Assembly: GCF_003012815.1 (NCBI RefSeq)
Contig: NZ_PXYJ01000003.1
Span: 372,001 to 436,000, forward strand
Length of the DNA: 64,000 bases
DNA from: Allosphingosinicella vermicomposti
GTDB lineage: Bacteria; Pseudomonadota; Alphaproteobacteria; Sphingomonadales; Sphingomonadaceae
Reading direction: 5' to 3'
Shown here: one piece after another, positions 51,601 through 64,000 of the stretch
How positions within the stretch are numbered: position 1 is the stretch's first letter
How the letters are laid out: each line of letters opens with the position of its first letter
Position numbers and translations under genes: made by a program
The notes under the pieces: generated by a model
The model's database searches: none
Seen by the model: only the letters and a program-made list of their open reading frames with translations
Told to the model about the DNA's origin: nothing

Positions 51601-51718
51601 TTAGTCGAGGCCGAGCGCCTGCCGGTAGGTTTCGAGCAAGGCGTCGGCTTCCTGACGGACGTGGTTTTCCATCTTGCGGAGCCGCACTATGGCACGCATC
51701 GTCTTGGTGTCATAGCCG
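51601..51718 (-). pseudogene. 3' fragment of gapR/DUF2312 at the island junction
   Basis: On the minus strand the last 39 codons match the C-terminus of DUF2312/GapR nucleoid-associated proteins: [20 protein letters not shown], then [18 protein letters not shown] and a stop. Upstream of GYDTK the reading runs into unrelated sequence (HVSSRGCF), so about the first half of the gene is missing. The simplest reading is that an island integrated in the 3' part of gapR; the intact gene, repaired by the island's att copy, would then lie at the far end. That end is outside the window. Confidence 0.72.
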
Positions 51719-51929: not shown

Positions 51930-51952
51930 AAGCCCCTGATGGAAAGGGGCTT
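51930..51952 (-). terminator. Possible minus-strand terminator
   Basis: A seven-base stem AAGCCCC / GGGGCTT with a nine-base loop, followed on the minus strand by TCTGTTTG. It would insulate the gapR side from the recombinase operon. The run of T is weak. Confidence 0.4.
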
Positions 51953-52022
51953 CCAGCCAACCGGACCGGACCCCGCCCTATCACTTGCGCAATTATTAAC
52001 CTTCATCTCATACAGTGGTAGA

Positions 52023-53450
52023 ATGAGCGAGTGGCACGAGAGTGGGTGCGATGAACTGGGCGAACTCGGCGCTGGTCCATATCATGTCGTTCAGCGCGTC
52101 CCCCTTGCGAAGGGTTTAGGCATCTGCCCGGTCCTATTTGTTGAAGATGCGCGGGGAATGGTGGCGATCCACCGAGGCGCTCTCAAGTGGGCCCGCTCTC
52201 GATTCTTGGAACGCAATCAGAAAGGGGTAGTCGACGATCTCCGAATATTGGGCCGACTGCACGACTTTCGGCGGATCGCATGGCGTGATGACCCGCTGCC
52301 CACTGACGATCGGTCCACCTTTATCGGAAGCTATCTGGACGCCCGGTATCATGGAACTACGAGCAACCCAGCGTGGCGCGCCCTTGCCTGGCAGCCCGTC
52401 AGCTACACCAGCGTTCGAGCCGAATTCCGCAGCATCGCCCGGTATCTTGAGTTTCTGTATAAGACCGACGCGTGGGCCGACGAGGGCTTCCTAACCCGCG
52501 ATATCGCTGAGCTATTCTATAACCAGATCAAAGTTGCTTCCTCTGCTACGAACAGTGGCTTCTTCAGTCACTTAGCGGCGAGCCGCGCCCGCTGGAACGC
52601 ACTTTACGGCACCGGTTATGCAATGCCGGACCTCGGCGTCCGAGATGAAGCGGGCACGGGCTCCACGCTTTCTCTCGACCGAACTATCGAGCTGACGGAA
52701 GCTGAGTTGATCATCGAGAAAGAGCCGAATCCGGTTTACCGAGCGATCTGGACCCTGGGCGCTTTCGGTGGCCCTCGAATTTCCGAAATGCTCCACATGT
52801 GGCAGTGCGATGTGCTTCCAGCCTCGACGTTCGAGCACCTAACGGGCGCTAATCGAGGCCAGCTTTTTGTCGTGATCGCCCATCCCTCAGAGTCGACGTA
52901 TACAGGGGATTTCTCCCGAAAAGGTCCGACGCGCCTTCGCTATCTACATGACAAGTATGGCCTTAGGCCGCGCAACCACCAACATGGCTATAGGAAAGTT
53001 GGGTGGAAGAATCCGCTGATGATGGACCGCAAAATGCTGTTTTCCGAAGTTTTCTGGTCCGACTATCGACAGGCCCATGCGTTTGCGGAATGTTATGCTG
53101 AGCTTCGACACTTCCATTCAAAGCACAACACAAGCCGCTATCATCCTTACTTATTCGTGAATCTCAACAGAGGGTCCGGATTTGGTGAGCCCATCGCTTA
53201 TACAAAAGCGCGAGAAGCCTTCGTCCGGGCGTGTACGCGAGTAGGGCTGGAACCTTCAATTTCAGGACGTCGAATCCATGGCCTCCGTCATGCTTACAAG
53301 CGACAGCTTGATGATCTGGAACTGCCGAAGCAATTCATTCAGATTGCGCTGCGCCATCGATCAGAAGCGAGCCAAGAAGACTATGGCAAAACGGCGAGAG
53401 CGGTTCATGAGCTTCTAAGTAAAAAGACATCTTGGGAGGCCAAATTGTGA
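52023..53450 (+). CDS. Tyrosine recombinase, first gene of the trio (GmtY-like)
   Basis: This 475-aa site-specific recombinase carries the tyrosine-recombinase residues: Arg252 (GAFGGPRISEML), His419 and Arg422 (RRIHGLRHAYKRQL), His445 (ALRHRSEASQ) and nucleophile Tyr454 (EDYGK). The N-terminal part (from about 130) contains a SAM-like core-binding region. The ATG at 52023 (SEWHESGCDELGEL) is preferred to 51939, which lies in a hairpin. It overlaps the second recombinase by GTGA. By size and position it matches GmtY of Gamma-Mobile-Trio elements; TnpA of Tn554 is the other known analogue. Confidence 0.85.
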   Translation: MSEWHESGCDELGELGAGPYHVVQRVPLAKGLGICPVLFVEDARGMVAIHRGALKWARSRFLERNQKGVVDDLRILGRLHDFRRIAWRDDPLPTDDRSTFIGSYLDARYHGTTSNPAWRALAWQPVSYTSVRAEFRSIARYLEFLYKTDAWADEGFLTRDIAELFYNQIKVASSATNSGFFSHLAASRARWNALYGTGYAMPDLGVRDEAGTGSTLSLDRTIELTEAELIIEKEPNPVYRAIWTLGAFGGPRISEMLHMWQCDVLPASTFEHLTGANRGQLFVVIAHPSESTYTGDFSRKGPTRLRYLHDKYGLRPRNHQHGYRKVGWKNPLMMDRKMLFSEVFWSDYRQAHAFAECYAELRHFHSKHNTSRYHPYLFVNLNRGSGFGEPIAYTKAREAFVRACTRVGLEPSISGRRIHGLRHAYKRQLDDLELPKQFIQIALRHRSEASQEDYGKTARAVHELLSKKTSWEAKL

Positions 53451-56400
53451 TTGTAGTACCTGCAATCGACGGCAAGCTGGAAGCATATAACAATGATCCC
53501 GACGTCCATCTGAACATCGGTGCGACAGCGGCCATCACGGCCCTCCCAACCATGCATCAATTGCGGCAACACTGGTCTGCGTTCCTCGACGAGTTGCGGG
53601 AGGGGCTTCTTTCACTATGGTCGATGCCCCACAGCGAAGTTGTAAAACGCTATGGGCTCCTAGGCTATAACAAGGGCAGCAATGTCCTGCGAGGCGACAA
53701 TGCGTGGGGCCTCATGCCTAAAGCGCAGACGGAGAGCAAAGGCCTTACTCGAATTCGTCAAGGCGCAACGCTTCGGGCGATCGTGGACGCTGGCCTGTTA
53801 AGTGAGCGCGAGTGCGGCACCTCGAAATTCAGAGGCCCCGAGGGATCTGCCAATTACCTCAATAACCTCCCTTTCAAAGACCAGCAGGGCTTCTTCGCCG
53901 CGCTTTTATATCCAGGATGTAATTTCGACGAGGTCATCCGCCTCAATCAGAGCGCGCAGTTCGGCCAGGCAGAAATCGAAGAACTGTTACTTGAGCACAC
54001 ATCGGCAGAAGCCGCCCTACAAGAAATCGCAGAGAGCGCGGCCGCCAACGCAGAAGTTGGGTTGGGCGCCGGCCGCCAAGCAGAAGGCCGCCGGTACGCG
54101 GCTATGTGGTTCGCAGCTTATCTTGCTCGTGAAGGTGTTTGGCTTCTGCCTTTAGATTACTGCAGTTGCGTGGTCGACGCCTTCCCTGTGTGGATGAGGC
54201 CGATACAGATGAGGATTTCATTTCCGAAATCCATGTGGGCGTTCTGCGATGGGCTGTTGCTTGACTATTTAGCCAACGAGAAAGGGAAGTCGAATGGGGC
54301 CTTGGTCGTAGGCATCGCGACCGAGCTTGCTTGGTCTTCGGATATCTGGAGAGCCGGCGGCCTACGCGCTGGCCCTCTCATCGGGTACAAGCGCCTTTGT
54401 CTAACTAAGGACCTGAAGTCCGGCGAACACCGATCGTGGGCGGTAAACCGAATATGGGATGCTCAACGGGAGCATTTCAACGTTGCGCCGAACGTCCACC
54501 TAGATAGCCATGCGTTCGTACTAGGAAAACGGCTTGTCAAAAAAGGCAGACCTTTCGACTGGGTTCGCCACCCAAACACCAAGAATCTCGCGACCTACAC
54601 GAGGATTTACGGAGATACTGTAGACCGCTTCCCCGAATGGATGCTGGATTGGGCCAAGCAACTTGAAGAGCTTCTTCCGCTCTTTCAAGTGGAAGGAGTA
54701 GAGTCAAAGGTCGCTTCACTCGATATTTGGCTTCTCTATCTGGCTGGGATCAACAATCCACCTAAATCTCTCAAGGAGGTGGCACGGCATCACATTAACT
54801 CTGGCGGGGCCCCTAACCTATTCTGTTTTCGTAAGTTCCTGATTGAAAATTACACCACGGGAAGTCGCAGCAGCGCTGGTTCTGCGATCAGTACATTGCA
54901 ACAGGCCTGGGCCCTGGCGTCCCTGAAGGAGGGTTACCAGACAGAACTCACTAACCCCATAGCCTTAACGGATACGCCGTTCGAAACGAGGGTGCGCAAT
55001 GCACGCACCTCTAGATCCGCTATGAATACGCAAGTGGCCGAGATTATTGCCGCTGAAAACATCCGGGATGGCATGGCATTCGCCAAAAGCCTGGGCACCA
55101 AACATAAACATTGCTGGCGCGATATCCGGAACCCCGAAACCGGCATGATGGAGAGCGTCTTTTTCCCGGGTGCCCCCACTGCCATCCACCTTATTCTTCA
55201 TACGGGCATGAGAGGGCTTCAGGCGCGATGGTTGGACAGTGGCGAAGGTGATGAAGAAGTTATCGATTTCGAACGTAAGTCGTACGTCCCTAATCCGAAC
55301 ACCATTGCCACAAAAGGTCGGCAACAAGGCTTCTTCCGCCTCTGTGACCTAATGGGAGCGACGCGCTCCAAGGAAATCGGAATGTGGGTCAACTCAGGGA
55401 AGAGCGGCCCCCATGAGGTACCTTGGGTCCACGAGGACGTCATAGAACCGGTGAGGGAGCTGATCGCTTTCCAATCAAAATGGAATCCCCTCAGTGCGCC
55501 GGTCAAAATCGAACGCGATCCTGGCTTCGAGTCGGCCTACCGAAAAGCGAAGGGGGACTCGTATCCACTACTTAGAGATCCCATCAACCAACTTGGTCAT
55601 CCGATAACAATCGAGCGTATCCGCTCGTACTGGAGGTCACTGCTCGAACGCTGCCAGCCGCTCGTAGATCGCGCGCTCGGCTACCATTATCCCCTGCTAG
55701 ACGCCGAGGGAAAGCCGCGCTTCGACATCCACAGCCTGCGCGTACTCGTGGTAACAACCCTGCTAGACAATGGTGTCCCGGTATCTGTCGTGCAGATGCT
55801 TGTAGGGCATAAGTCCCCCATAATGACGTGGTATTATCATGATGTAACCAACCACAAGGTTCATAGCGCTCTTCAATCCTTGATGGAGCGCAGAAAGGCG
55901 GGACTTAAAGAAGACGAGCTGATCTCGGACGATGAACATGTTCTGCTGGTCGCCGAGAGTGTCACATTGCGATCGGAAGAAGACTTCGCGGGTGCTGAGC
56001 TGCTCCAGCAACATCGCGAAAGCCGCAATGCGGTAGACGTGTTCTCCCATGGTATTTGCCCGGGAGGCAGCTGTGAAACGGGTGGCAAGAGCTACCTAAC
56101 AGGCAGATACAAGCCGGTATGGCGACCCAGAGCGTGTTCAGGGTGTCGGTACCGCATTACAGGCCCGACGTTCCTCAACGGCTTGGTTCAAAGAGCAAAC
56201 ACGCTCATGTGGGAAATTAAGAGTTCGATGCAAAAGGAGGCCGAACTCAATCGACAAATTGAAGAGGAGGAGGACGCCGGCAAGCCCGTTCGACACCTTC
56301 GCGGCGCCGTAGAGAGCGAGCTATTGCTGCGAGATCAACTGTTCGAAGAATGGTGCCTTGAACTTCGCACAATCAAGTTAGCCGAGGCAAAACTGCGAGC

Positions 56401-56833
56401 GGGCGCGCAGTCTCATGTCAAAGACAATCTCCCGACGATCGCTGACGATATTGATATGGCTGCTGTCAGCACCGGGTTCCGAGAAGTGCATCAATTTGAG
56501 TTGGCTCAGCGCATCGTACAGGATGCTGACGTTGTCCAAGGACAAGTTGATCTTCCGTCCGAGGCAACCCTATACCGCGACAATGCTCTGTACCGCATTG
56601 CGCACGCAAACAATGCGTCACACTATTTCTACTCCCTTGATCCCCACTTAGCGAGAAAAGCGCTCAACAGATTTGGCGAACTCCTTATCTCACACTCGAC
56701 CTCGCCCGATAAGCTTCAGGCGATATTGGACGGCTCGCTGCTTTTGAAAGAAATCCCGGAACTCGAGCGAGTCTTGGAAACGGTACTGGATAACAACGCC
56801 GGATCACCCCAAATCGAAAGCCGTGCAGCATGA
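53447..56833 (+). CDS. Large tyrosine recombinase (GmtZ-like)
   Basis: This is a 1128-aa protein from the GTG at 53447, which overlaps the preceding stop (GTGA) and follows GGGAGG by seven bases. A long N-terminal region without recognisable domain (about 550 residues) precedes a tyrosine-recombinase domain. Its Arg is in LHTGMRGLQARWL near 590, with HSLRVLVVTTLLDNG near 762, LVGHKSPIMTWYYH near 785-798 with the nucleophile Tyr. After it come cysteines CPGGSCETG and CSGCRY (870-898), a zinc-knuckle-like cluster, and a charged coiled coil (KEAELNRQIEEEEDAGK). The size fits GmtZ. Confidence 0.82.
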   Translation: MIVVPAIDGKLEAYNNDPDVHLNIGATAAITALPTMHQLRQHWSAFLDELREGLLSLWSMPHSEVVKRYGLLGYNKGSNVLRGDNAWGLMPKAQTESKGLTRIRQGATLRAIVDAGLLSERECGTSKFRGPEGSANYLNNLPFKDQQGFFAALLYPGCNFDEVIRLNQSAQFGQAEIEELLLEHTSAEAALQEIAESAAANAEVGLGAGRQAEGRRYAAMWFAAYLAREGVWLLPLDYCSCVVDAFPVWMRPIQMRISFPKSMWAFCDGLLLDYLANEKGKSNGALVVGIATELAWSSDIWRAGGLRAGPLIGYKRLCLTKDLKSGEHRSWAVNRIWDAQREHFNVAPNVHLDSHAFVLGKRLVKKGRPFDWVRHPNTKNLATYTRIYGDTVDRFPEWMLDWAKQLEELLPLFQVEGVESKVASLDIWLLYLAGINNPPKSLKEVARHHINSGGAPNLFCFRKFLIENYTTGSRSSAGSAISTLQQAWALASLKEGYQTELTNPIALTDTPFETRVRNARTSRSAMNTQVAEIIAAENIRDGMAFAKSLGTKHKHCWRDIRNPETGMMESVFFPGAPTAIHLILHTGMRGLQARWLDSGEGDEEVIDFERKSYVPNPNTIATKGRQQGFFRLCDLMGATRSKEIGMWVNSGKSGPHEVPWVHEDVIEPVRELIAFQSKWNPLSAPVKIERDPGFESAYRKAKGDSYPLLRDPINQLGHPITIERIRSYWRSLLERCQPLVDRALGYHYPLLDAEGKPRFDIHSLRVLVVTTLLDNGVPVSVVQMLVGHKSPIMTWYYHDVTNHKVHSALQSLMERRKAGLKEDELISDDEHVLLVAESVTLRSEEDFAGAELLQQHRESRNAVDVFSHGICPGGSCETGGKSYLTGRYKPVWRPRACSGCRYRITGPTFLNGLVQRANTLMWEIKSSMQKEAELNRQIEEEEDAGKPVRHLRGAVESELLLRDQLFEEWCLELRTIKLAEAKLRAGAQSHVKDNLPTIADDIDMAAVSTGFREVHQFELAQRIVQDADVVQGQVDLPSEATLYRDNALYRIAHANNASHYFYSLDPHLARKALNRFGELLISHSTSPDKLQAILDGSLLLKEIPELERVLETVLDNNAGSPQIESRAA

Positions 56834-57663
56834 AGGCTACTATGGGCCGCACTCGCATCGACTACCTGAACTTTCTGCGTGACCACGAGAAAGCTGCAAC
56901 AGATGCCAGGCTCACCGCGGTTCTCCAGCAATCTGTGGACGAGGCGAACGCGTTCGAGCGAAACCTTTCGCCGCTCGCCTCTTTGGCCCGCTTGGTCGAG
57001 GCCTGCGATGCGATCGAGAGCGGCGAGGCAGCAGCGCTTGCGCGTCGGCTCCGATCCCACGAGGAAAAGCTGCGCCCGGGTCGCCATCGCGTCACGTCAC
57101 CTGCGATCGATGCCTACATTCGGCTTCGGGAATTACAGGATCAGCGGAAGGGCGTTCTGGAGACAGAGTGGACGGGCCCTAGAGAAGAAACCATCCGCCG
57201 GACTCCGTACTTGAACAGATACTTCCGGGCCCGACAAGAAGCCCGCGACTCCAAGCCGAAGCCGAGTTCAACATCGAAGAGCCGCCGCATCGAAGAGATT
57301 ATCGGCGGCATCCCCACGCCGGAAGGCAAGCAGGATATGCGCTTCTTCATCGATGAAGGTTTGGTGGCCCAGAAGAAGCTTCGCATCTTGCAGAAGGCAA
57401 TCGAATTGCACCTCCCCGGATTGGACATCGATGAACTGCTGTCCAATCCTGTTCCCCGTGTGGAGTCGAAAGACAAAAGAGAGTGCAACGGGGATGACAG
57501 ACAAGATTTGGTGAGGCTACGGAATAAGCTTCAGGACAGCGACGCTCTCCGCCACTTCGGCCTCACGAATGACGGCTCAAGAGTTAAGACGCTGCACACA
57601 GGCGCGCACTTCATTGACAAGTCCGAATATGCCGCATTGATGCGGATCCTCAACTCAATATAA
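56830..57663 (+). CDS. Third gene of the recombinase trio (GmtX-like)
   Basis: This is a 277-aa, charged, mostly helical protein with no catalytic motif I recognise. The N-terminal half (RTRIDYLNFLRDHEKAATDA) and the middle (RSHEEKLRPGRHRVTSPAID) look DNA-binding. A basic linker (SKPKPSSTSKSRR) separates a C-terminal part. Its ATG overlaps the previous stop (ATGA), so all three genes are co-translated. Position and length fit GmtX, whose function is unknown. By analogy with TnpC or RIT partners it may be a recombination accessory or target-choice protein. Confidence 0.65.
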   Translation: MKATMGRTRIDYLNFLRDHEKAATDARLTAVLQQSVDEANAFERNLSPLASLARLVEACDAIESGEAAALARRLRSHEEKLRPGRHRVTSPAIDAYIRLRELQDQRKGVLETEWTGPREETIRRTPYLNRYFRARQEARDSKPKPSSTSKSRRIEEIIGGIPTPEGKQDMRFFIDEGLVAQKKLRILQKAIELHLPGLDIDELLSNPVPRVESKDKRECNGDDRQDLVRLRNKLQDSDALRHFGLTNDGSRVKTLHTGAHFIDKSEYAALMRILNSI

Positions 57664-57964: not shown

Positions 57965-59569
57965 ATGAGGGGCGTGGTGTCAAAGTCAACGCTGCTCGCC
58001 CATGCCCGTTCGGCTGCCAAACACCTGGCCGAACCTGACCAGACCGCGCAGGCGCGGGTCGACGCGTGCCTCGATCTGCTTTCTGACGTCGGCGCCGACG
58101 AACGCCTCAATGGATTCCGACGGGCCCTACACGCGTTGCCAATGGACGAAAGGCACTACTGGGTCGGAACGCTCTACACCCTGATGCTGCCTAACAAGGT
58201 GCGGCGCTCCCAGGCGACATACTTTACGCCGCCCGCCGTGGCCGACGCGGTCGTCGATATGGCGATAGGGGCCGGTTTCGACCTCGACAAGGACGACGTA
58301 TTGGACCCCGCCGCCGGCGGCGCCGCATTCCTGTCTACGCTTGCCGGGCGCATGTCGATCGCAGAACTGCCCCCGCGCGAGGTTGCGCACCGCCTCAACG
58401 GGATCGAGATCGATGAGGGCCTCGCGGCGCTTTCCCGCCGTCTAATCGCCGAGCGGCTCGGCGTGCCTCTGCCGCGCGAGGTGATCGTGACGGGGGACGC
58501 CCTGCGCTATCCGATCCCCGAGTCATACGGACTGGTCATCGCGAATCCCCCATACGGCCGGATGTCGCTCGACGACGTCCACGGCCACGCCTGGAAGCGC
58601 GTCGCGCACAGCGGACACGTCAACAAATACGCGCTGTTCACCGAGCTGTGCTTCCGCCACGCCAAGCCAGGCGGCGTCGTCGCGCTCGTCATCCCATCGA
58701 GCTTTCGGGCGGGTCCGCTCTACGACCGCATGCGCGCATTCATCCGCTCGCAGGGCGTGGTCCTGAACATCGCCTCGATCGCCGGCCGCGACGGCGTGTT
58801 CGTCGACGTGGCGCAGGACATCAGCGTCTTGGTCGCGCGCAAAGGCAAGCCGCACCCCCGCGGAGCGATGGTGTCGTTCCCGATCGTGGGAAACACGGCG
58901 ATGACCAAGGAGGCGGTCGAACAGTCGTTGCCGCAGGAAGCCGGCGACGCCTGGCCGCTGCCCGCAGCGGACCCGCGCGACATCGGCGGTGCGACGCTCG
59001 CCGACTATGGGGTCGCGGCGCGCGCCGGCTATTTCGTCTGGAACCGAGAGAAGGACCGGCTGGTCGACAAGCTGGAGCGTCGTCAGCGCGGCTATCCGCT
59101 CATCTGGGCCAAGAACGTGCGCCTGAACGAGGACTGCAGGCCGGCCGGCAAGAAGAACAGGAAGACCGACTTCGTCACCTTCGACTACGACAGCACCGCA
59201 ATCATTAAGACCGCCGCGGCCGTCATGCAGCGGACGACCAACGACAAGCAGCCACGTCGCCTTGTGGCCGCGATGGTCGATCCGGCGGTCGTCGAGAAAT
59301 GGGGCGGGTTTGTGACCGAGAACCACACGATCGTCCTCACTGCGGACGATCCGGATAAATTGCGGATCGCGATCGCCCTCCTCAACACCGCCGCCGTCGA
59401 TCAGCGCTACCGGCGGGTGTCCGGCACCGCTGCCGTTTCTGTCACCCTCCTGCGCCAGCTCGACCTACCGACGCCGGCCGCATTCGCCTCGGCGCTCGCC
59501 GACACGGATGGCGACGCCGAAGCCGCGGCTCTGGCCGCCTACCGTCAACCCGAGCTGGCTGACGCCTGA
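57965..59569 (+). CDS. N6-adenine DNA methyltransferase leading the cargo operon
   Basis: This 534-aa class I methyltransferase has the SAM-binding motif I region VLDPAAGGAAFLSTLAG (near residue 113) and the catalytic motif IV VIANPPYGRM (near 192). The layout is of the TaqI/Eco57I-like gamma type that methylates adenine N6. The region after 270 looks like a target-recognition domain. Without motifs such as PCQ it is not a C5-cytosine enzyme. The ATG at 57965 follows CTGGAG; nearby GTGs (57974, 57977) are possible. Its stop shares a base with the next gene (TGATG). In a defence system it would mark self DNA. Confidence 0.88.
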   Translation: MRGVVSKSTLLAHARSAAKHLAEPDQTAQARVDACLDLLSDVGADERLNGFRRALHALPMDERHYWVGTLYTLMLPNKVRRSQATYFTPPAVADAVVDMAIGAGFDLDKDDVLDPAAGGAAFLSTLAGRMSIAELPPREVAHRLNGIEIDEGLAALSRRLIAERLGVPLPREVIVTGDALRYPIPESYGLVIANPPYGRMSLDDVHGHAWKRVAHSGHVNKYALFTELCFRHAKPGGVVALVIPSSFRAGPLYDRMRAFIRSQGVVLNIASIAGRDGVFVDVAQDISVLVARKGKPHPRGAMVSFPIVGNTAMTKEAVEQSLPQEAGDAWPLPAADPRDIGGATLADYGVAARAGYFVWNREKDRLVDKLERRQRGYPLIWAKNVRLNEDCRPAGKKNRKTDFVTFDYDSTAIIKTAAAVMQRTTNDKQPRRLVAAMVDPAVVEKWGGFVTENHTIVLTADDPDKLRIAIALLNTAAVDQRYRRVSGTAAVSVTLLRQLDLPTPAAFASALADTDGDAEAAALAAYRQPELADA

Positions 59570-62322
59570 TGGCCGGCAGCCGACCCTACCACCGCCCGCC
59601 GGGCGCGACCCAGCAGGACCGGGACCAGGCGCGGAAGGCGATGCTCGACCGACGCCAGGCGCTCACCGCCAAGCTGGCCGAAGCGGCGGCGAGGCGGGCG
59701 GCCAACGCCGTTGCGCCGCCCCCGTGCGAGCCGGAGCTGCCGTCGCGGGACGTCGAAGGCTATATGGCTGCCATCGCGTCCCAACCGCTCCATCGGCTCG
59801 GTGAAGCTGAGGTGGCAGAGCTAACGCCGACCTATGCGACGCTGGTCCGGTCGGCCGCCGAGATCGCCGGTCGGGGTGACGTCAGAGTCGTGATGCCATG
59901 GCCACCTTCGAAGGTGTCGCCATCGGCGATCGTCTCGCTGCTCGCGATCGGCGCGATCGGCAGTGCGGCCCGTGCCAGCGTGCGGGTGCAGGGCATCGAC
60001 ATCGTCAGCAGGGAACGTGCCGACGAGGTGCGAGCGATGGTGTTCCCATACGCGCGAAGCTCTCATGCCCAGGCGAGGCAGGTACAGGTCGATCGACACG
60101 ACTTGGGCCGGACCAACTTTGAGCACGTCGCCCGGTATCTCGGCAGCGGCGGTGATGCGGCGAAGGACCTGCACCAAGTCCTGGCGCGTGTCCGCAGACT
60201 GAGCGGCCGCGCGTCCGACGGACGCGACTACGCCGAGTTCGAGCACCCCATCCTCGACGAGATCATCCCCCACGGTCCGGCGCGCGGCGACCGCCCCGCC
60301 AACAGCTCCGTCTTGTGGCGCACGCGCACCAAGACCGACATCGGCCGGCAGACGCGATCGGGCGAGGCCGACGATCCCGCTAAGGCCGCATACTACATGT
60401 TCACAGTCCGGCGTGACGACCGGCTCGGCGTCGAGCTGCGCGCAATTGAGCGCCCGCTCGACCTGCTCATCCTCGACCTATCTCGAAACGGGCGTGACCG
60501 TCTCGGTTGGGACTGGGTGCGCCGAGCCGGGGAGATGGCCACGTGCATGCGCGAAATCCACCCCTCTGCTGGTATCCTCGCCGTCGTCGACGACCCCTGG
60601 TCGTATCGCGCGGTCCGCTTCGACGTGCTCGGAACTAAGCAGCCCGGTAAGAAGGGCAAGGTCATCCCCGCGCCGGGCAGCGTCATCTACTGCCCGACCA
60701 CCGGTATTCTCCAGGACGTGGGCCAGCGCACGCCGCCGTTCGAGGGCGCCTCCTCCATCGCGGTCGATGGGTTCTACGGCGACGTCGACAGCAACATCGA
60801 GCACCTGCGCGAACTCGCCAACCGCCTAGCCGATATGGGGGATCCCGCCGGCGCCGCGACCGCTCGCAACCTGATGGGGACCGTCCGCCGGTCGGCGAGC
60901 CTACCCGGCTCGATCGCCGAACTAAGCCGCTTCATCGAGCGCGAGACGTCGGCCGCCATCGCCGACGACCGCCTCGCAACATACCGCGCGACCGCCGACA
61001 TCAGCACTTTGACCGACCCCACCAGCCTCGCGAGCCAGGCCGATGCCGAGAAGGGAGTGGCGGCTGAAACCAGGGCCGTGATGCGAACGCTCGAGCAGGC
61101 GACGCCGATGGCAACGCTGATCGAGGATGCCATGCAGCCCGCGCTGCGGTCGAGCTCCCGCTCCGTCTTCGTGTTCCGATCCGACATGATCGCCGAGTTC
61201 GCCGTGGACAGGCTGGGACCGTCGCACCCCAAGCTCGCCGAGCGGATCGAAAGCGGCGTAATACGCTTTGGCGGCGCACGCGCGCTCGACATCGTCGCCG
61301 ACGCGCCCCCTTCCGCTCGCAACCAGTTCAAGCGCGCCATCTTCGTCGCGCCCACGACGTCGACGATACTGGCCACGCTGGCGGAACCCTGGCTACCCGA
61401 GCAGGTGGTGTTCCTAGCCGATGCAGATACGCTGGCGTTCGCCGCCCGCGACGCCTCCCGCCTCGCCGACGAGATCGGCGTCGACGCGCTTGCGGCGCGG
61501 CTGCGGACGTTCGCCCAGAAGGCAAACAGCCGCGTAGCGGGGATCGGCCGCCACACGGTGCAGCTGGATGCCGAGGCGCCGTCCGAGGACGTCGAGTTCC
61601 CGACCGGTTCGGTGGTCGACCTCACCGGCGGTGGCCGGGGCGAACGCCGGCTCGTCGAAATAAAGCTCGGCAACGGGCAACGCGTTATCGCCCGATCGTC
61701 AACCGGCATGGTTCTGCGGGATGACGGCGCGGCGACGACCACCTTCGTAGAGCGACCCGCGTCACAGATCAAACGTGGCGATGAGGTCTGCGTGATCGGC
61801 GCTGGGTTCATCGAACGTGCCCGGTCGCTCGTGAACATCCGCGCAACCGCGGCCGAGGAGATCCGCGAATATCACAGTCAGGTGGCGAAGCGGTTCGCCG
61901 CGATACCCGAGGAATCCACTAGTGGACGGCTCCGAGTTTTGGTGGCGCGGATGGGCCAGCCGGCCGTACCTATCGAGCGCGCCAGATACTGGATCGATCT
62001 GCGGGACGAGATCGACAAGCCGCTCCACGAGGTCGTACCGCATGCCCCGCAGGACCGGGACACCTTCATGCGGTTCACTGAGGCGCTCGGGATCGGACAG
62101 AAGCTGGCCGAGAGCTTTTGGCTTTGGGCCGTAGTCGCCCAGCGTTCCCACCGGATGCGCGCGGGGAACGTCTTCCACGACGCCTTCCGTGGCATCCTCA
62201 CTGATCCCCATGCGGCGCTCGCTAGCAACCGCGACCGCAGCGCCGACATCAGGGCGCTTCGCGCAATGGCCGAGGAACACGTCGCGACCGTAGCCGACAC
62301 ACGGAGTATCGAGGCATTATGA
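59569..62322 (+). CDS. DrmE-like protein of a DISARM-related system
   Basis: This is a 917-aa protein without a Walker A motif. It reads as a degenerate helicase-like region: VVMPWPPSKVSPSAIVSLL (near 108), VFPYARSSHAQ (near 158), SVFVFRSDMIAEFAVDRL and IFVAPTTSTILATL (530-600). A C-terminal beta domain follows with RRLVEIKLGNGQRVIARSS (near 692) and ASQIKRGDEVCVIG (near 732), which resembles a Hint-like beta layout. This arrangement recalls DrmE of class 2 DISARM. The assignment rests on pattern and on its place between a methyltransferase and a DrmA-like gene; a novel defence protein is the alternative. Confidence 0.5.
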   Translation: MAGSRPYHRPPGATQQDRDQARKAMLDRRQALTAKLAEAAARRAANAVAPPPCEPELPSRDVEGYMAAIASQPLHRLGEAEVAELTPTYATLVRSAAEIAGRGDVRVVMPWPPSKVSPSAIVSLLAIGAIGSAARASVRVQGIDIVSRERADEVRAMVFPYARSSHAQARQVQVDRHDLGRTNFEHVARYLGSGGDAAKDLHQVLARVRRLSGRASDGRDYAEFEHPILDEIIPHGPARGDRPANSSVLWRTRTKTDIGRQTRSGEADDPAKAAYYMFTVRRDDRLGVELRAIERPLDLLILDLSRNGRDRLGWDWVRRAGEMATCMREIHPSAGILAVVDDPWSYRAVRFDVLGTKQPGKKGKVIPAPGSVIYCPTTGILQDVGQRTPPFEGASSIAVDGFYGDVDSNIEHLRELANRLADMGDPAGAATARNLMGTVRRSASLPGSIAELSRFIERETSAAIADDRLATYRATADISTLTDPTSLASQADAEKGVAAETRAVMRTLEQATPMATLIEDAMQPALRSSSRSVFVFRSDMIAEFAVDRLGPSHPKLAERIESGVIRFGGARALDIVADAPPSARNQFKRAIFVAPTTSTILATLAEPWLPEQVVFLADADTLAFAARDASRLADEIGVDALAARLRTFAQKANSRVAGIGRHTVQLDAEAPSEDVEFPTGSVVDLTGGGRGERRLVEIKLGNGQRVIARSSTGMVLRDDGAATTTFVERPASQIKRGDEVCVIGAGFIERARSLVNIRATAAEEIREYHSQVAKRFAAIPEESTSGRLRVLVARMGQPAVPIERARYWIDLRDEIDKPLHEVVPHAPQDRDTFMRFTEALGIGQKLAESFWLWAVVAQRSHRMRAGNVFHDAFRGILTDPHAALASNRDRSADIRALRAMAEEHVATVADTRSIEAL

Positions 62323-64000
62323 AGGGTCTGTCGCACGCGAAGCTTTCTGGGATCGACGTCGAGCTCAAGGAAGCGGTCTGTGATGCGCTGGTGAACGCGC
62401 TCGTCGAACGCGTGAGCGGCACCGACGAGCGAGGGCGGACGATCTACGGCGGTTCGCCCCGACGCGGAATATTCGCCGGCCAGCTGCTCCCGCGCTTCGA
62501 CGTCAGCGGCGCCCTCGACGAGACCACCGACATCCGCATCGCGGCGATCGGGATGGACTTCGTGGTGGGTGCGAACGGCTCCGCCACCATCCACGCGACG
62601 CCCCGGTTCTCCGCATACGTGCGAGTCATCCCGCAGTGGTGCGACCTGACTGGCGGCGGTGGCCAGCTCGATTTCGACTTCAAGCTGCAGAAGGGGATCC
62701 AGCAGCAGATCGACGCTGCGATCCGCGCCGACCGGGCGACCGCCCTAAAGGCCGCCAACCTCGATCGGCCCGACTGGAAGGCGATGGACGAGACGCGCCG
62801 GTCGAAGGTCCGTGCGGAGCGCGCCAAAATCCTCGCCGACGTGCGCGTCAAGGCCTACGCTGCATTCGGGATCAAGCTGCTTTCGGGCGTGCCCGACGAA
62901 CCTGCCCTGACGGCAGAGCCCCCGGCGGGGAACGGGGACGACACCGGGGACTCCACGGAACAGCCGGCGCCGATCTCACGCCTCATCCGCGAAGGCCGGG
63001 ACCTGCCGCTGACGCTCGTGGATCCCGCGCCGATACCGGGCAAGTGGCGGCGGCTCGACCTCTCCCTCCCGACCTTTGAGTTCGATAGCGCAATGGGGTC
63101 GCCGGCCCTCGCCGCCGCGCTCGTAACCTACAATTCCAGCCTCGCCGCGGCGGTGGCGGCCCAGCTCGAGGCTTGGGCTGCCGGCGAAGGTGCCGCCGAG
63201 GCATGGCGAGACGTCAACGTCTCACCCGGCGACACGCTGGACGAGGCCCGGTGGAATGCGGCCGTCGCGGCGCTAGCCGCCAGGCCCATCGACCGTACGC
63301 GCGTCGTCCCCGATCTCTCCCGCATCGCCCTCAAGGTCGAGCGCCAAGTCGACTTCCTAGACCCCACGCGGCTGTCGCTGCGGGTCGTCCTCGATAACCA
63401 GTCACTCGAGCCCACGCCGCAGGACGCGCGCGGTCGCTGCAACACCGTCTTCGGCGCCGGGCTGACACTCGCCCTTCCCACTGCAGCGCACCGGCCGCTC
63501 CGGCTCGATAGGGTCGAGCCCTCCTACCGATTCCGCGACCACCTCGACTATCCGGCGATCGGGCTCAACTGCGGGGTCGAAGCGATCGAAGCCGGGGACC
63601 AACTCACCCTGGGCACCACCGCCGCCCCTCGCTTTGCGCAGCCGCGCATCGTTGCCCGAAATATCGACCTCCCCTTTCAGTTTGCGATCCTCAAGGATCG
63701 GTCTTTCGACGCGAAACGACTGCTCGAGCTGCCGCGCGCATACAGCGAATGGATTGATGGCCAGGAGAAGCGGCTGCGCGACACCGTCGCGGCGGGCCTG
63801 ACACCCGACGATGCGGCGGCCGAGAAGGCACGTCTGGGGAAGGACATCGCCGCCCAGCGCGCCGAGGCGCGTTACATCGAGCGCGGCGTCGAGATCCTGA
63901 TCGCGTCGAAGAAGGCCAGCGACCAGTTGGCCGGCAACCCGCCGGACGACCGGGACGACCTCGCGCGACGCGCCGCGCCCTGGATGGCATGGACGCTCAC
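62319..64000 (+). CDS. DrmA-like protein, N-terminal part, runs off the window
   Basis: The ATG at 62319 overlaps the previous stop (ATGA). I translated 560 codons to the edge with no stop, although no complete frame can be seen. The N-terminus has RRGIFAGQLLPRFD then IRIAAIGMDFVVGANGSATI and TPRFSAYVRVIPQW (residues 49-107), like the N-terminal region of DISARM helicase DrmA. APWMAWTLT at the end of the window resembles the segment just before its Walker A. An acidic Pro/Gly linker (EPPAGNGDDTGDSTEQP) lies near 210. The helicase motifs themselves would be outside the window, so helicase activity is inferred. Confidence 0.55.
   Translation, partial: MKGLSHAKLSGIDVELKEAVCDALVNALVERVSGTDERGRTIYGGSPRRGIFAGQLLPRFDVSGALDETTDIRIAAIGMDFVVGANGSATIHATPRFSAYVRVIPQWCDLTGGGGQLDFDFKLQKGIQQQIDAAIRADRATALKAANLDRPDWKAMDETRRSKVRAERAKILADVRVKAYAAFGIKLLSGVPDEPALTAEPPAGNGDDTGDSTEQPAPISRLIREGRDLPLTLVDPAPIPGKWRRLDLSLPTFEFDSAMGSPALAAALVTYNSSLAAAVAAQLEAWAAGEGAAEAWRDVNVSPGDTLDEARWNAAVAALAARPIDRTRVVPDLSRIALKVERQVDFLDPTRLSLRVVLDNQSLEPTPQDARGRCNTVFGAGLTLALPTAAHRPLRLDRVEPSYRFRDHLDYPAIGLNCGVEAIEAGDQLTLGTTAAPRFAQPRIVARNIDLPFQFAILKDRSFDAKRLLELPRAYSEWIDGQEKRLRDTVAAGLTPDDAAAEKARLGKDIAAQRAEARYIERGVEILIASKKASDQLAGNPPDDRDDLARRAAPWMAWTL

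Follow-up and report, generated by a model that had tools for sequence, protein, structure and literature searches.

A putative DISARM-type operon of a third kind, with an adenine methylase and a candidate remote homologue of DrmE, in Allosphingosinicella vermicomposti

The 64,000-nucleotide stretch of DNA analysed here, referred to throughout as the window, corresponds to C3:372001-436000 (C3 being contig NZ_PXYJ01000003.1) in the 2.5-Mb, six-contig genome of Allosphingosinicella vermicomposti (G000), and its right end holds the beginning of a five-gene operon which is very probably complete and which, judged from the encoded proteins, constitutes a putative DISARM-type anti-phage system of a third kind. 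The five genes lie on one strand with their ends overlapping and encode, in this order, an N6-adenine DNA methyltransferase, a large protein henceforth called gene 2, DrmA, DrmB and a phospholipase D (PLD) protein corresponding to DrmC.

According to the definitions printed in the cited part of the PADLOC description (PMC9252829), type I DISARM consists of DrmA, DrmB, DrmC and DrmD together with DrmMI, drmE being prohibited, and type II consists of DrmA, DrmB, DrmC and DrmE together with DrmMII. By these definitions the operon fits neither type and, on its predicted gene products, is best described as a mixed third type. The more general proposition, which is given somewhat better than even chances, is that of a third DISARM class distributed over four phyla, in which an adenine methylase is combined with a pseudo-helicase (gene 2) of the DrmE superfamily, with DrmA and DrmB and, optionally, with DrmC, gene 2 and DrmE being inactivated superfamily 2 (SF2) helicases that occupy the slot of DrmD. 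This placement would in turn give a single plan for all DISARM classes, namely a methylase, a helicase-fold adaptor, a DrmAB translocase and an optional nuclease.

Gene content of the operon

The first three open reading frames (ORFs) are coupled through the junctions TGATG (methylase/gene 2) and ATGA (gene 2/DrmA), as had been stated in an earlier reading made from the window alone (the sequence-only reading) and as both the ORF coordinates and the junction letters bear out (Table 1). The operon continues beyond the window edge, the 3′ part of drmA and the whole of drmB and drmC lying outside it; extension of the contig to the right, which the same reading had proposed as a check, was made with 20 kb of the same contig (L001) starting at window-equivalent 56000 and disclosed both a DrmB-like and a PLD gene after drmA.

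The first gene product had been taken for an adenine-N6 methyltransferase on account of its NPPY motif, and this holds true: Pfam domains N6_Mtase (PF02384, 1.4e-10) and Eco57I (2e-8) are present, the translation contains DPAAGG in addition to NPPY, and the best PADLOC model is MTase_II (PDLC03338, 1.3e-97). The DrmMI model is absent from the best 25 of its 42 PADLOC matches, and no cytosine methylase (DrmMII) was found in the five genes with PADLOC and Pfam, the enzyme of the operon being of the N6-adenine type and a second methylase being absent.

The third gene, of which only the DrmA-like start had been seen, is recognised over its entire length as the SF2/YprA helicase of DISARM by PADLOC DrmA (1.6e-94), NCBIfam DrmAS (6.1e-111) and the solved DrmA 7s9v_A (1.3e-46), and GK[ST] and DEx[HD] are found in 8 of 8 aligned rows. 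Its N-terminal 560 residues, folded with 61 relatives by AlphaFold2 (AF2; predicted local distance difference test, pLDDT, 85.1), have 7s9v_A (DrmAB) as their sole Protein Data Bank (PDB) match in Foldseek at E<=0.001 (1.6e-8, TM-score 0.31 by query, root-mean-square deviation, rmsd, 13.8); by sequence profile the match of this N-terminus to 7s9v_A is weak and limited to positions 432-553 (E 0.026). Residues 191-217 form a disordered stretch (pLDDT <50), and segment 182-232 has a median of 22% acidic residues in 62 sequences. In the cited part of PMC9142583, residues 176-232 of Serratia DrmA are reported as an autoinhibitory trigger loop, and the disordered stretch falls in this number range, a similarity of numbering that is suggestive and no proof of equivalence.

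The fourth gene, separate from drmA and following it, encodes a protein matched by PADLOC DrmB (1.1e-15), NCBIfam DrmB_fam (5.5e-13) and, when the family profile is used, 7s9v_B (1.7e-9); thus, DrmA and DrmB each have a match in the solved structure of a DISARM complex (7s9v). The DUF1998 gene expected downstream is therefore identified through these three matches, since the Pfam DUF1998/MZB model itself yields 14 bits as against a cut-off of 24.2 and, at E<=0.001, has zero matches across the whole genome. The PLD protein is recognised as DrmC by PADLOC (1.1e-9) and the NCBIfam DrmC model (~1e-9) and by Pfam PLDc_2 (2.3e-7), and it contains one HxK motif, the FHAK and VGS residues being invariant in 7 of 7 aligned rows.

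Table 1. Operon genes and recombinase module, in window positions or their equivalents beyond the window edge
Feature	Position	Strand	Length (residues)	Basis or remark
N6-adenine DNA methyltransferase	57965-59569	+	534	Pfam, PADLOC, motifs
Gene 2, putative distant DrmE homologue	59569-62322	+	917	Profile-profile match, AF2, Foldseek
DrmA	62319-66647 (window-equivalent)	+	1442	Profiles, structure; first 560 residues in window (62319-64000)
DrmB-like	66640-68874 (window-equivalent; L001:10641-12875)	+	744	Profiles, 7s9v_B
DrmC-like single-HxK PLD protein	68871-69410 (window-equivalent; L001:12872-13411)	+	179	Profiles; GTG start
Three-gene recombinase module	51939-57663	+		Just inside island left end; 55% GC
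Recombinase module, first protein	51939-53450	+	503	Phage_integrase 4.4e-5 (below cut-off)
Recombinase module, second protein	53432-56833	+	1133	Integrase_2 3.5e-15, Phage_integrase 1.9e-7
Recombinase module, third protein	56830-57663	+	277	No Pfam match

Gene 2 and the DrmE superfamily

The relationship between gene 2 and DrmE emerges from the comparison of profiles. The gene-2 alignment comprises 61 sequences (the own protein and 60 others) and the DrmE alignment eight DrmE or DrmE-like proteins, five of which (L100, L018, L104, L105 and L108) exceed the 80-bit cut-off of NCBIfam DrmE_fam; L106 and L107 fall short of it (66.9 and 69.1 bits, respectively) and L099 has no match. The two profiles are aligned by hhalign with a probability of 97.5% (E 6.6e-12, score 110, 546 columns), and restricting DrmE to its five strict rows yields 97.9% (E 3.1e-13, score 119.6). 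Among the controls, the profiles of the four other operon proteins (DrmA, DrmB, DrmC and the methylase) have scores between 15.6 and 23.6 and unrelated profiles overall no more than 23.7, 40 column-shuffled DrmE profiles reach at most 18.4 and the reversed profile 20.9. Furthermore, the gene-2 family matches DrmE both before residue 670 (E 1.5e-5) and after it (E 1.8e-8) and the alignment is colinear across the N and C parts, so that the match between gene 2 and the DrmE superfamily extends over most of the length, as is required for remote homology. The matches of gene 2 to single DrmE-like sequences are weak (L018, E 6e-4, probability 29%; L016, E 0.002, probability 13%). Taken at the level of sequence profiles, these data indicate that gene 2 is a remote homologue of DrmE lying outside the curated DrmE families.

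An identity with DrmD, the SNF2 helicase that characterises PADLOC type I, was considered and rejected, since hhalign with the DrmD protein of L012 gives E 0.096 and there is no DrmD among the PADLOC matches listed for gene 2.

The AF2 model of gene 2 (mean pLDDT 87.1, predicted TM-score, pTM, 0.79) is predicted to comprise a RecA-like pair, followed by a small beta domain at residues 682-741 or thereabouts and then by a C-terminus made up of helices. Foldseek finds 18 PDB structures that match it at E<=0.001, with FANCM (1.6e-6), Hel308, RIG-I and MDA5 at the top, which suggests a two-RecA, SF2-like fold. The Walker A pattern is found in one of the 61 family sequences; the looser motifs GK[ST] and DEx[HD] occur, regardless of position, in 18 and 34 of them, respectively. 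At the expected site of a P-loop, after the first strand, a conserved WP is found instead (W 60/61, P 61/61), and later strands bear D303 (49/61) and T-R. Since 60 of the 61 sequences are devoid of Walker A, gene 2 is probably a dead helicase; an active one was rejected on the same count.

Conservation, genomic setting and alternative readings

Relatives were sought in genome contigs by means of two DrmA peptide patterns, which retrieved 305, the best 80 (76 loci) being kept; the patterns having been drawn from the gene-2 group, the scan favours this group and the resulting counts are no census of DISARM. Two loci (L023, L062) are the same records as two others (L005, L008), and L046 comes from another strain of the L007 species. 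Presence was scored with hidden Markov models (HMMs) built partly from proteins picked by position, and gene 2 was recounted with an HMM of four rows. DrmA and DrmB occur in all 76 loci, gene 2 in 73, the methylase, i.e., the DNA methyltransferase expected in a DISARM operon, likewise in 73, and DrmC in 54; the four-row HMM again finds gene 2 in 73 of the 76 (69 at E<=1e-10), the three loci without it starting inside DrmA at a contig end. The suspicion, voiced from the sequence alone, of a mixed type made of an adenine methylase, a DrmE-like protein and DrmABC is strengthened by the joint presence of gene 2 and methylase in 72 of the 76 loci and by gene order, whose comparison in other genomes had been suggested: the full methylase-gene 2-DrmA-DrmB-DrmC succession is found in 46 of the 76 loci and, with only DrmC lacking, in 16 more, the methylase being located behind DrmB or DrmC in 10 gene-2 loci. 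Split frames in one or more of the five genes are seen in 8 of the 76 loci (L031, L037, L038, L043, L048, L065, L066, L088), which are either decayed copies or products of sequencing errors.

Seven plasmid records with this DrmA all contain DrmA, DrmB and, before DrmA, an ORF of the size of gene 2. All seven are marked by a gene-2 HMM partly built on them, and an HMM built without L010 and L011 finds L010 (1.3e-29). A DrmC match is present in six of the seven and a strong methylase match likewise in six; in R. phaseoli (L009) the only methylase match is weak and on the opposite strand. “Hypothetical protein” is the label given to gene 2 and to the first DrmB frame in the six annotated records, and in Sinorhizobium americanum plasmid A (L007:14304-20096) drmB is split by an IS66 insertion. 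In S. parapaucimobilis YK209 a class 1 DISARM (L012, unnamed8, with an annotated DrmD) coexists with the gene-2 type (L006, unnamed5). The gene-2 HMM has zero matches in three class 1 and five other DrmA loci (L012-L019). Among 385 genomes sampled from the class, only the own genome possesses gene 2 (E<=1e-5) and only the own genome possesses this DrmA (E<=1e-100); therefore, the system is rare per genome.

A DrmA tree, obtained by a quick method from 29 gene-2-linked loci, three of class 1 and 14 other DrmA, places all 29 gene-2-linked DrmA in one group with a support of 100, spanning Pseudomonadota, Acidobacteriota, Thermodesulfobacteriota and Ignavibacteriota. This group is adjoined by the DrmA of haloarchaea (L018, L100, L106, L107), Rubrobacter, Streptomyces and Roseomonas (L015), and the three class 1 DrmA are placed apart from it; the deep branches of this tree are long, and false joins are flagged as a risk by the program.

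The operon (67% GC) is the cargo of an integrative island of ~46 kb inserted in gapR, near yebC. Homology to the related genome G751, whose gapR is recognised by Pfam GapR (6.3e-34), stops inside gapR at window position 51718 and resumes at C3:470147 (window-equivalent 98147). The right end of the island bears the cut 5′ part of the host gapR (L129:622-780, -), beside which there is a complete gapR-like ORF (L129:288-548, -) with a 74% DNA match. A dispersed family of ~70-base repeats, resembling repetitive extragenic palindromic (REP) elements, is found on contigs C1, C2 and C3, often on both strands (e.g., C3:36795-36863).

Several results weigh against the proposed third class. Gene 2 is recognised by none of the DrmE models in PADLOC and NCBIfam and has no Pfam match, so that the DrmE which type II demands by curated model is not seen in it; its sole library matches are weak and unrelated (PADLOC PDC-M54B, E 0.012; NCBIfam NetB, E 0.43), and five other gene-2 proteins gave 0/5 matches with the DrmE models of PADLOC and 0/5 with those of NCBIfam. 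At the level of genomes, NCBIfam NF038316 has zero matches in the own genome at E<=1e-8, DrmE_fam matches 2 of 398 genomes of the phylum, the own not being one of them, and PADLOC PDLC02635 matches 0 of 299, a count that says little since 14 control genomes are equally blank. Accordingly, the DrmE assignment made by eye is upheld by the profile-profile test with its controls and not by single models, and of the HMM checks recommended with it, that of the third protein succeeded with DrmA and that of the 917-residue protein with DrmE models did not. Moreover, the 18 gene-2 proteins nearest to the own one, itself included, match DrmE at E 8.3e-4 with a probability of 24% over 161 C-terminal columns, and the strong match depends on 43 distant members (E 2.3e-13, 555 columns); since the two sets match each other at 8e-104, the link of the own protein to DrmE runs through its family. 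The TM-scores of the gene 2 Foldseek matches at E<=0.001 are 0.17-0.23 by query length with large rmsd, and therefore speak at most for RecA-like domains and not for their arrangement. The DrmA score is 372 bits as against an NCBIfam equivalog cut-off of 950, and those of DrmB and DrmC are also under their NCBIfam cut-offs; DrmC is missing from 22 of the 76 loci, some of which are cut by contig ends (19 of the 22 were inspected), and the Afipia gene in gene-2 position (L011) is missed by the HMM built without it. Finally, the class 1 side of the DrmA tree also harbours the cytosine-methylase locus L099 and two DrmE_fam-linked loci, L108 and L109, so that DrmE-type partners are not confined to one side. 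In L109 (L109:2613-7991, G646) the protein concerned has 1792 residues, with a long N-terminal part and a DrmE_fam C-terminus (1545-1770), and its gene lies two genes before one of DrmA length.

Part of this evidence could also be accommodated by recognised class 2 DISARM, in which DrmE would merely have diverged and the cytosine methylase would have been swapped for an adenine one, no separate type being needed. The homology of gene 2 to DrmE over 546 columns and the proximity of its DrmA group to the DrmE-linked DrmA of haloarchaea, Rubrobacter and Streptomyces argue for this possibility, but the recurrent association of adenine methylase and gene 2, the failure of every DrmE model to match the latter and the single, supported DrmA group across four phyla argue against it, and its probability is put well below even. 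A less likely case is that gene 2 is unrelated to DrmE and that a shared Hint-like or helicase-like domain alone makes the profiles match. Indeed, positions 677-745 of the gene-2 profile have one weak PDB match to an intein (Hint; E 0.007), SF2 helicase folds are common and the 18 nearest proteins match DrmE in their C-terminal part only; on the other hand, the N part of the 61-sequence family, which has no Hint-like domain, matches DrmE at E 1.5e-5 and the helicase DrmA at E 0.83, the match is colinear through both parts, and DrmA and DrmB adjoin DrmE in L018 and L100 as well.

An ARMADA- or Druantia-type YprA helicase system instead of DISARM was rejected as very improbable: YprA-family helicases are common to all these systems and ARMADA, too, has a methylase (cited part of PMC12458937), but here, as in DISARM, one gene encodes the helicase and another the DUF1998-type protein, the profile searches reveal no RapA/BrxHII-like helicase, methylase of PglX size or Vsr nuclease in the five genes, and the best profiles of the helicase are those of DrmA, DruE3 reaching only 7.3e-5. 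Equally hard to credit is a decayed, non-functional relic carried by the island, as might be surmised from the split frames of the eight relatives, since all five reading frames of this operon are open, each one overlapping the next, and the motifs of DrmA, methylase and PLD are present in the translations.

Proposed mechanism and likeness to known systems

In the mechanism that can be envisaged, the methylase would mark the host DNA at adenines, and DrmA and DrmB would together constitute a single ATP-driven translocase, which is loaded onto invading DNA having a single-stranded part and kept off the host DNA by the acidic, disordered loop of DrmA and by methylation. Gene 2 may be a non-ATPase adaptor or sensor docking on DrmAB and DNA where class 1 has the helicase DrmD, and the PLD protein may serve as an auxiliary nuclease within what would be a phage defence. 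Translocation, loop autoinhibition and methylation sensing are suggested by analogy with DISARM biochemistry: in the cited part of PMC9142583, DrmAB acts on partly single-stranded DNA, is autoinhibited by the loop and has a lower ATPase on methylated DNA, as measured with 5-methylcytosine and not with N6-methyladenine. The same part contains the remark, itself a citation, that DrmC appears non-essential, with which an auxiliary role of DrmC and its absence from 22 of the 76 loci are in line.

Should the third class be confirmed, defence surveys could gain one class through an additional PADLOC-style definition; the conserved pairing of gene 2 and methylase offers a route to the function of DrmE, which would be expected to have a helicase-like fold and not to bind ATP, and the operon represents an adenine-methylating system in which to ask whether DrmAB reads methylation. 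A third-class or variant DISARM of this kind was not found in the open-licence literature. The main-text portion of a 2025 survey of YprA systems (PMC12458937), which presents the domain architecture of class 1 DISARM and the new ARMADA, BRIGADE and TALON systems, does not describe the combination of an adenine methylase with a DrmE-like protein; ShdA homologues in DISARM-like operons represent another variation (cited part of PMC10270631).

With ARMADA the operon shares a YprA helicase and an adenine-type methylase, but the cited part of that survey assigns to ARMADA a helicase-DUF1998 fusion, a RapA-like helicase and a Vsr nuclease domain, whereas DrmA and DrmB are here products of separate genes and neither a RapA/BrxHII-like helicase nor a PglX-like methylase accompanies them. 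With class 1 DISARM (PADLOC type I) it has in common the adenine methylase, DrmA, DrmB and DrmC, and the DrmA fold including the N-terminal region (7s9v); it differs in having gene 2 in place of DrmD, in the methylase, which counts about 1300 residues in class 1 (L012, L014) and 534 here, and in its DrmA group, from which the three class 1 DrmA tested stand apart. With class 2 (PADLOC type II) it shares a predicted DrmE homologue before DrmA and DrmB as well as the PLD protein DrmC, but the methylase is a cytosine one there and an adenine one here, and gene 2 is unmatched by DrmE models.

The haloarchaeal loci (L018 and L100, and L106 and L107 with their DrmE under the cut-off) display the same DrmE-DrmA-DrmB order, and their DrmA share a half of the tree with those of the gene-2 group, but no methylase is annotated in the stretches shown and, unlike gene 2, their DrmE match DrmE_fam. 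Finally, the loci of Rubrobacter (L016:3019-14192) and Streptomyces (L101:1991-13103) have a methylase, a protein of 830-840 residues without PADLOC match, DrmA, DrmB and PLD. In L016 the protein in gene-2 position is only weakly related to gene 2, as seen above, and the methylase is best matched by a different PADLOC model and is not recognised by the methylase HMM of this operon; in L101 the methylase is on the opposite strand and the 830-840-residue protein is weakly recognised by DrmE_fam (1.1e-5). These two actinobacterial loci may represent additional variants built on that plan.

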